Shown: in pieces, positions 12,537 to 28,326 of the stretch
How positions within the stretch are numbered: position 1 is the stretch's first letter
Layout: every line of letters starts with the position of its first letter
Source of the DNA: a bacterium
GTDB taxonomy: Bacteria; UBA8248
Direction: 5' to 3'
Length of the DNA: 64,000 bases
Assembly: GCA_022828125.1 (NCBI GenBank)
Contig: JAJEJD010000020.1
Coordinates: forward strand, 620,001-684,000
Notes under the pieces: model-generated
The model's input: only the letters and a program-made list of their open reading frames with translations
The model's database searches: none
What the model was told of the DNA's origin: nothing
Position numbers and translations under genes: made by a program

Positions 12537-13769
12537 ATGAGCAAAACGTCCACCGGACCCGCCCTTCGTCCCGGCGAATTCGTTCCCCTCGTCGCCCTTC
12601 TGATGTCGCTCGTCGCACTCTCTATTGACGCGATACTGCCGGCGCTGCCCGTGATAGGCCACGACCTCGGGGCGCCGCGCCGAAACGACGTCCAGTTCGT
12701 CGTCACGGCCGTGCTCCTGGGGCTCGGCCTCGGGCAGATCGTTTTCGGCCCCCTCTCCGACAGGATCGGACGCAAGCCCGCCATCAATACCGGCCTCGTT
12801 CTGTTCATGTCGGGATGCGTCATGAGCATCTTCGCATCCACTTTCGAGGTGATGATCGCGGGCCGCGTGCTGCAGGGGGTCGGAATCGCGGGGCCGCGCA
12901 TCGTGACCGTCGCCCTGGTGCGCGATCAGTACGAAGGACGCCGGATGGCTCGCCTCATGTCGTTTGCGATGGCCGTGTTCATCCTCGTTCCCACCGTCGC
13001 GCCCGCCCTCGGGCTGGGGATACTGTGGCTGGGCGGCTGGCGCGCGATATTCGTCACCTTCTTCATCACCGCCGCGTTCACGCTCGCGTGGTTTTCGCTT
13101 CGCCAGCCGGAAACCCTGCCCCCCGCCCGTCGGCGGCCCCTCTCCCCGCGCGCCATCGGCGGCGCCGTCCTGGAGGTGCTGCGGATCCGGGCCGCGCTCG
13201 GATATACCGTGGCCACCGGATGCGTGTTCGCGCCGTTCGTGGCCTATTTGAGCTCCGCCCAGCAAATCTTCCAGGAGGCCTACAATACCGGCGCACTCTT
13301 CCCGGCCTATTTCGGCGTCCTGGCGCTCGCTTTCGGCGGCGCCTCGCTCGTGAACGGGTGGCTCGTCATGAAGTACGGGATGCGGCGGCTCTCGAGGAGG
13401 GCGACGGTATCCATGACGCTGATCTCGGTCGTCGGCCTGGCGCCGGTCTTCGCCTTCGAGGGACTTCCGCCCCTCTGGCTGTTCATGACCTACCTGCTCC
13501 TCGTCTTTCTCTGCATCGGACTGCTTTTCGGAAACCTCAATGCGCTCGCCATGGAACCCATCGGCCACATCGCCGGCGTGGGAGCGGGCGTGGTCGCCAC
13601 GCTCTCCACCTTCATCTCGGTGCCGTTCGGCGCAATCGTGGGCCATGGTTTCGACGGCACCATGTACGCCCTGATCGCCGCTTTCGGCGTCTTCGGCGCA
13701 GGGACCTACGCCGCCATGAGATGGGCCGAGGGAGGCGCAGAGCGCAGCCGGGATGCCGACGCCCGATAG
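12537..13769 (+). CDS. Bcr/CflA family MFS drug exporter
   Basis: Twelve-segment major-facilitator protein of 410 residues, inner membrane, expected to export drugs or metabolites by proton antiport. The first helix has LSIDAILPALP, and the loop between helices 2 and 3 has the MFS motif GPLSDRIGRKP. Motif C-like residues lie around FILVPTVAPALG. A GGGAGG box precedes the ATG. The last 30-40 codons are repeated as a broken copy at 21371-21497. The next frame downstream is a half EamA transporter 38 nt away. Confidence 0.92.
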   Translation: MSKTSTGPALRPGEFVPLVALLMSLVALSIDAILPALPVIGHDLGAPRRNDVQFVVTAVLLGLGLGQIVFGPLSDRIGRKPAINTGLVLFMSGCVMSIFASTFEVMIAGRVLQGVGIAGPRIVTVALVRDQYEGRRMARLMSFAMAVFILVPTVAPALGLGILWLGGWRAIFVTFFITAAFTLAWFSLRQPETLPPARRRPLSPRAIGGAVLEVLRIRAALGYTVATGCVFAPFVAYLSSAQQIFQEAYNTGALFPAYFGVLALAFGGASLVNGWLVMKYGMRRLSRRATVSMTLISVVGLAPVFAFEGLPPLWLFMTYLLLVFLCIGLLFGNLNALAMEPIGHIAGVGAGVVATLSTFISVPFGAIVGHGFDGTMYALIAAFGVFGAGTYAAMRWAEGGAERSRDADAR

Positions 13770-27652: not shown

Positions 27653-28207
27653 TTAATCCGTAACGCCGCTCAACGAGACCGACTCGCCATTCAAGTTCAC
27701 GGTGCTTTTCAGCGGAACGGCGTCCGTCACCATTTGTTCGGCGAAACATCCCTGCTTCGCGTTCTTGATGACCGCCAGAATCTTCTCGGCCGGTTCATCG
27801 GATTCCACTTCAAAGTGCGTGCGGACTTCATTGCATCCGGCATTCACCGTTCCCTTGAGAACGGAACCCCGTAAGAAATAATCGAAATCCACGTGCACCT
27901 TGGCGTGCGTGAAGGACACTTTCATCATATGCGCGTACCGCGCAAGCTGGGTTAGGAGTCAGAACCCCACCCCCATGGCAATGTAGCAAAGCGGTTGGGG
28001 ATAGGAATCTTCTCCGCCGATGCGGGGCGGCTCATCGCAATACACTTCGAAGTGTCTGTGCGTCCCCAGCTTGAGTTGACCCTTTCCCTCTATCGTTTCG
28101 GTGTCGGCGGACATGGTGAAGGCATAGCCCTGTGTGGGGAGTTCGGGTTTGTCGATGGCACGCTCACCGGGAACGGTGCTGTCTTTACGCGGATCGAGAG
28201 GTTCCAC
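27653..28207 (-). CDS. OsmC-like peroxiredoxin, probable selenoprotein (in-frame TGA)
   Basis: Thiol-dependent peroxidase fold. Read through one in-frame TGA (27959-27961), the two flanking frames join without shift into a 184-residue OsmC-like protein. Upstream lies DEPPRIGGEDSYPQPL, downstream LLTQLARYA. The TGA falls exactly where the family has its first redox cysteine (consensus ALGAC). The second cysteine is present as QGCFAEQ at Cys154. A perfect hairpin with a G-U loop follows 15-29 nt later. I infer selenocysteine at residue 83. The start is a GTG at 28205-28207 with AAAGGAG 9 nt upstream; an ATG eight codons earlier lacks a ribosome site. A simple nonsense mutation is the alternative. 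Confidence 0.75.
27930..27961 (-). promoter_or_regulatory. Candidate bacterial SECIS element with its UGA codon
   Basis: On the minus strand the UGA (27959-27961) is followed 14 nt later by TGCGCG, a 3-nt loop GTA, and CGCGCA (27930-27944), a perfect 6-bp stem. The loop begins with G then U, as bacterial SECIS elements require, and lies about 20 nt from the UGA, inside the usual 16-37 nt window. Confidence 0.65.
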
Positions 28208-28326
28208 TTGTCTTGTCTCCTTTGGTGTCATAAGAATGGCGGAAGAAAGACGTTATTATGCACGCAAGGGCGGTGCAGGAGAACCGCCGGAGCACTCGTT
28301 TTCTCGTGATTAAAAGGGGCTTTTTT

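Follow-up and report, generated by a model that had tools for sequence, protein, structure and literature searches.

In Ohr/OsmC proteins, the first of two redox residues attacks peroxide and the second resolves. OsmC-like selenoproteins with a UxxT motif, in which U denotes selenocysteine (Sec), were reported from the Sargasso Sea in 2005 (three sequences; PMC1088965) and from the Global Ocean Sampling in 2008 (five Sec sequences; PMC2398784), and a 2026 review lists OsmC-like selenoproteins with UxxT as the sole OsmC motif (PMC13188914). Because of the 2005 and 2008 reports, and because a curated NCBIfam model exists (NF041052), the kind of protein considered here is already known, and the gene described below adds a member to the family; an earlier note on this DNA, which drew on the sequence alone, had cited the marine examples correctly. 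A literature search found no paper treating both selenoproteins and Tectomicrobia. The gene almost certainly encodes a genuine OsmC-superfamily selenoprotein (NCBIfam OsmC_like_Se), with Sec insertion predicted from a fixed in-frame TGA, a conserved downstream hairpin and the Sec machinery of the same genome.

Results

On the minus strand of the window (the whole 64,000-nucleotide stretch analysed), an ATG at 28231 opens a frame of 90 codons that ends in ...YIAMGVGF at a TGA, beyond which the same frame continues (LLTQLARYAHMMK...) down to a stop at 27653. No obvious Shine-Dalgarno-like motif lies upstream of this ATG. The gene holds exactly one in-frame TGA, and its 192-residue read-through product scored 47.7 bits against Pfam OsmC (PF02566; cut-off 27.5), which places it in the superfamily, and 183 bits against NF041052 (cut-off 95; profile positions 2–144 of 144), which places it in the family. 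These scores bear out the proposal of the earlier note that two same-phase frames split by one TGA make up one OsmC protein, and its placement of the TGA between MGVGF and LLTQLARYA, at the first redox-Cys position, also held, as did its observation of an intact second cysteine in QGCFAEQ (residue 162). The main features are as follows.

27653..28231, minus strand: predicted OsmC-like selenoprotein gene, 192 amino acids with Sec at residue 91; orthologues in L066–L071 are 93–97% identical
27959..27961, minus strand: in-frame TGA, the predicted Sec codon (residue 91), in the motif GF-U-LLTQ (UxxT); present in all 94 distinct homologous sequences and all 72 above-cut-off matches of the phylum
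27930..27944, minus strand: putative SECIS-type hairpin UGCGCG-GUA-CGCGCA, 6 bp with a GUA triloop, G first; assigned from conservation and published criteria (PMC13188914 Fig. 2)
27746..27754, minus strand: QGC of QGCFAEQ, containing the second, presumably resolving, Cys162 (codon 27746–27748); invariant in the alignment and at the position of the second Cys in PDB 3cje

In a codon-usage scan of the window for TGAs both preceded and followed by coding-like sequence, the OsmC TGA was the top match, with four others marginally weaker. Those weaker TGAs, at window positions 12926, 51457, 56957 and 7995, possibly reflect antisense or shadow frames.

An AlphaFold2 model of the product (pLDDT 92) places U91 inside a long helix (residues 80–102) and C162 between helices 148–161 and 163–171, and its Foldseek matches are OsmC/Ohr structures, at identities of about 11–22%. 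The model bears on the suggestion that the upstream frame simply stops and translation restarts at an ATG at 27928, giving two non-covalent halves: an in-frame ATG (the Met of AHMMK) does lie about ten codons past the TGA, opening an ORF at 27653–27928, but a protein divided in this way would have its central helix cut, the intervening LLTQLARYA is strongly conserved as protein, and the hairpin shows conservation of its nucleotide sequence. We rejected two separate ORFs on these grounds, as a very improbable arrangement. With continuous translation through a Sec codon as the preferred reading, termination at the UGA without selenium may still occur as a by-product.

To place the TGA in a comparative context, homologues were collected within and beyond the phylum. 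Genes of NF041052 were found in all 18 genomes of the order, and a phylum-wide search returned the same 18 genomes, in which 72 of the 72 above-cut-off matches contained exactly one TGA. At the ULLT codon, the TGA was present in every one of 94 distinct sequences (own, relative and collection loci) from several bacterial groups; the relatives are labelled in the genome collection as Nitrospinota, Tectomicrobia, Nitrospinaceae, Betaproteobacteria/Burkholderiales and Dehalococcoidia, labels that include odd titles for some betaproteobacterial-looking metagenome-assembled genomes (MAGs), for example 'Bordetella parapertussis'. More distant Cys relatives carry Cys at the Sec column (L122, 'TTCIMTQL'; PDB 3cje, 'TGCVMTQI'), which marks the column as a Cys/Sec pair, and the second Cys of 3cje likewise aligns with Cys162; among the family sequences compared, no Cys member of NF041052 was found. 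The locus thus shows the hallmark by which bacterial selenoproteins are recognized, an in-frame UGA where homologues have Cys. It could be argued that this is an ordinary Cys-OsmC gene that has become a nonsense-mutated pseudogene or contains a sequencing error, as the TGA breaks the frame and is one substitution away from TGC or TGT. A pseudogene, however, would give scattered stops and frameshifts, whereas the same TGA recurs in all 94 distinct homologues and all 72 phylum matches with the downstream frame conserved; its conservation across independent assemblies refutes both forms of this exceedingly improbable explanation.

The hairpin begins 15 nt past the UGA, with its loop starting at 20 nt, and spans the 15–29 nt that the earlier note had given for it. 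Published constraints on bacterial SECIS (bSECIS) elements are a loop of 3–9 nt, a stem of 4–16 bp, a spacing of 16–37 nt and a minimum free energy of −7.5 kcal/mol or lower, with a G among the first two loop nucleotides, the next base commonly being G or U (PMC13188914); the hairpin agrees with every one of them (3-nt GUA loop with G first, 6 bp, 20 nt and −8.6 kcal/mol for the hairpin region). In a 47-nt fold its energy was not unusual, as 57 of 200 dinucleotide shuffles did at least as well (z = −0.45). Against recodings of the same peptide, weighted by the codon usage of the family, it was unusual, with 11 of 3,000 trials reaching the hairpin energy. As energy alone is not significant, support for the hairpin rests on comparison. 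An Rfam search of the gene region returned nothing relevant.

Comparison among homologues revealed constraint at the nucleotide level. At codons +6 to +9 past the TGA, observed versus expected synonymous entropies were 0.00 versus 1.57, 0.00 versus 2.01, 0.08 versus 0.96 and 0.50 versus 1.53 bits, and most of the codons flanking the hairpin varied much nearer to expectation. The Arg within the hairpin is encoded by CGG in 95 of 95 sequences, even though these genes use CGC most often for Arg. Stem pair 19–29 is C-G in 86 sequences, G-C in 4 and A-T in 3, with one mismatch, so that pairing is kept in 93 of 94, a level reached in none of 20,000 shuffles (which ignore sequence relatedness). One side of this pair falls at the second position of a codon in which Ala gives way to Gly, Glu or Lys; its partner, the free third position of a codon that always encodes Ala, tracks the changed residue. 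The changes fall in three separate sequence groups (the C5-type paralogue, L055/L057 and L129). Conservation across homologues is the decisive support for reading the hairpin as a putative SECIS-type element.

The assembly carrying the window (3.92 Mb in 32 contigs, 97% complete and 3.4% contaminated) encodes a full Sec apparatus on a single contig (C30): selA (575.9 bits), a full-length selB (384.5 bits) separated from selA by one hydrolase gene, selD (334.9 bits) and tRNA-Sec (75.9 bits; called by ARAGORN as tRNA-SeC with anticodon tca). SelB scored above the cut-off in 20 of the 25 more distant genomes with an OsmC-Se gene, with partial copies in others; at the threshold applied, 2 of the 25 gave no SelB match, plausibly owing to incomplete assemblies. 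Nearly all genomes compared are MAGs.

Two further observations concern selD. The gene itself (L148, G000:C30:4116-5078) has its own in-frame TGA, in MVKAGGUGSK (motif GGUG), followed by a downstream hairpin, and is of the known Sec type of SelD. A SelD/AIR-synthase-like gene (L037:8144-9409, G000:C5) lies just downstream of an OsmC-Se paralogue and scored 91 bits to selD, below the cut-off; this may be a paralogue of selD or encode a related enzyme.

An otherwise open frame interrupted only by UGA is also what a lineage would present if it had reassigned the codon, or read it through, as another amino acid such as Trp. Yet 16 of the 39 long ORFs of the window terminate in TGA, only a handful of window TGAs are flanked on each side by sequence that looks even weakly coding, the column holds Cys in the Cys relatives, the SECIS-like hairpin is conserved, and selA, selB, selC and selD are present. 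A changed code therefore has a negligible chance of being correct, and was rejected on the TGA scan and the ORFs ending in TGA.

The selenocysteine reading of the earlier note stood, supported by the Sec machinery, the fixed TGA and the conserved hairpin, with the residue number corrected from 83 to 91, counting from the ATG at 28231. That note had proposed aligning homologues and looking for selA, selB, selC and selD, and had held that a genome lacking selB or selC, or relatives with random stops and no hairpin conservation, would speak against it: the alignment gave TGA or Cys at the Sec column, all four genes were present (selB and tRNA-Sec among them), and the TGA is fixed at one column, with a hairpin that is conserved and covarying.

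Taken together with the OsmC fold, these features suggest how the protein might be made and might act. UGA codon 91 would be decoded as Sec by SelB and tRNA-Sec under the direction of the GUA-loop hairpin that closely follows it in the coding sequence. Sec91 would then take the place, within the central helix, of the peroxidatic Cys of OsmC/Ohr proteins, with Cys162 as its resolving partner: the selenolate of Sec91 would attack a hydroperoxide (or similar oxidized substrate) to give a selenenic acid, Cys162 would close a selenenyl-sulfide, and a dithiol donor would re-reduce the enzyme. By homology, the protein is most likely a thiol/selenol peroxidase or related oxidoreductase running such a cycle, and hydroperoxide reduction is its putative, somewhat favoured, reaction. 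A different use of the same fold, in selenol redox, persulfide or electrophile handling, would leave the identity of the selenoprotein intact and is a possible but less probable account of the reaction; the NF041052 clade is far from classical Ohr/OsmC (its best PDB relative by sequence is 3cje), and the neighbours of this paralogue are metabolic rather than stress genes (a 2-hydroxyacid dehydrogenase, an FAD oxidoreductase and an aquaporin), but the alignment shows no variation at either redox residue of the OsmC/Ohr pair. Clustered neighbourhoods of about 90 family members offered nothing diagnostic of the substrate; betaproteobacterial members have TctC nearby.

In betaproteobacterial MAGs, an OsmC-Se gene is closely preceded on its own strand by a GrdB-like gene containing a TGA in frame (SPVUPNCTC), an apparent two-selenoprotein operon. 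The GrdB-like genes are listed here.

L138:3577-4956: GrdB-like gene with in-frame TGA
L145:217-1464: GrdB-like gene with in-frame TGA
L130:3628-4935: GrdB-like gene with in-frame TGA

The gene in the window is one of eight OsmC genes in its genome, five of which have an in-frame TGA (four besides this one) and three of these belong to NF041052. A 3.9-Mb assembly from another genus of the same family (G015) contains eleven NF041052 TGA genes, one of them truncated at a contig end, which is an unusual degree of paralogue expansion for a single selenoprotein family. The two remaining TGA-bearing genes of the own genome represent further subfamilies, here called B and C.

L151, G000:C29:37485-37979: subfamily B OsmC gene, motif AGUGLYT; NF041052 59.6 bits, below cut-off
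L160, G000:C4:28131-28604: subfamily C, Ohr/OsmC-like gene, motif AGULTG; TIGR03562 28.5 bits, below cut-off; resembles PDB 1ukk

In subfamily B, the TGA is present in 7 of 7 close homologues (L151 and L152–L157), and a 7-bp stem, CGCTGCT-GGG-AGC(A/G)GCG, with its loop 17 nt past the TGA, occurs in the six extracted. In subfamily C, all 16 phylum genomes with a match have the TGA (L160 and L161–L175), and the hairpin GCGCGC-TGGAT-GCGCGY, with its loop 25 nt past the TGA, is found in 15 of the 16 and in a near-identical form in the remaining one; when a longer stretch of the own copy is folded, the pairing of lowest energy is slightly different. Neither the literature search nor NCBIfam/Pfam yielded a description of subfamilies B (UGLYT) or C (ULTG), and both may be undescribed, because the review that lists OsmC-like selenoproteins gives only the UxxT motif (PMC13188914). 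On balance, we think that Sec has probably become fixed in at least three separate OsmC subfamilies of the phylum (UxxT, B and C), in each case at the first redox position and with a conserved SECIS-type hairpin of its own, that UxxT has expanded to a maximum of 11 copies per genome, and that B and C are undescribed.

Discussion

This locus provides a clean, well-supported case, from a lineage not yet cultured, of a selenoprotein family that is rare, and links the marine OsmC-like selenoproteins, previously represented by a handful of metagenomic sequences, to genomes in which the Sec apparatus is complete. The fixation of Sec throughout the phylum, the lack of any Cys member among the family sequences compared and copy numbers of up to 11 suggest a dependence of these organisms on selenol-based OsmC chemistry. 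There is also a practical consequence, in that gene callers that read TGA as a stop will truncate all of these OsmC-Se genes.

Compared with described systems, the gene shares the Sec column and the second Cys with the 'OsmC-related (seleno)protein' model (NF041052), differs from it in nothing material and is thus a member. Like the marine UxxT selenoproteins (PMC1088965, PMC2398784), it combines an OsmC domain, a UxxT motif (here U-L-L-T), a predicted downstream SECIS and Cys homologues; whereas those are few metagenomic sequences, the gene here has several paralogues and comes from a nearly complete MAG that encodes the whole Sec machinery. With classical Ohr/OsmC peroxiredoxins (for example, Pseudomonas aeruginosa Ohr, PDB 1n2f) and with PDB 3cje, it shares the fold and the two redox-residue positions, but sequence identity is low and Sec is predicted to replace the first Cys.
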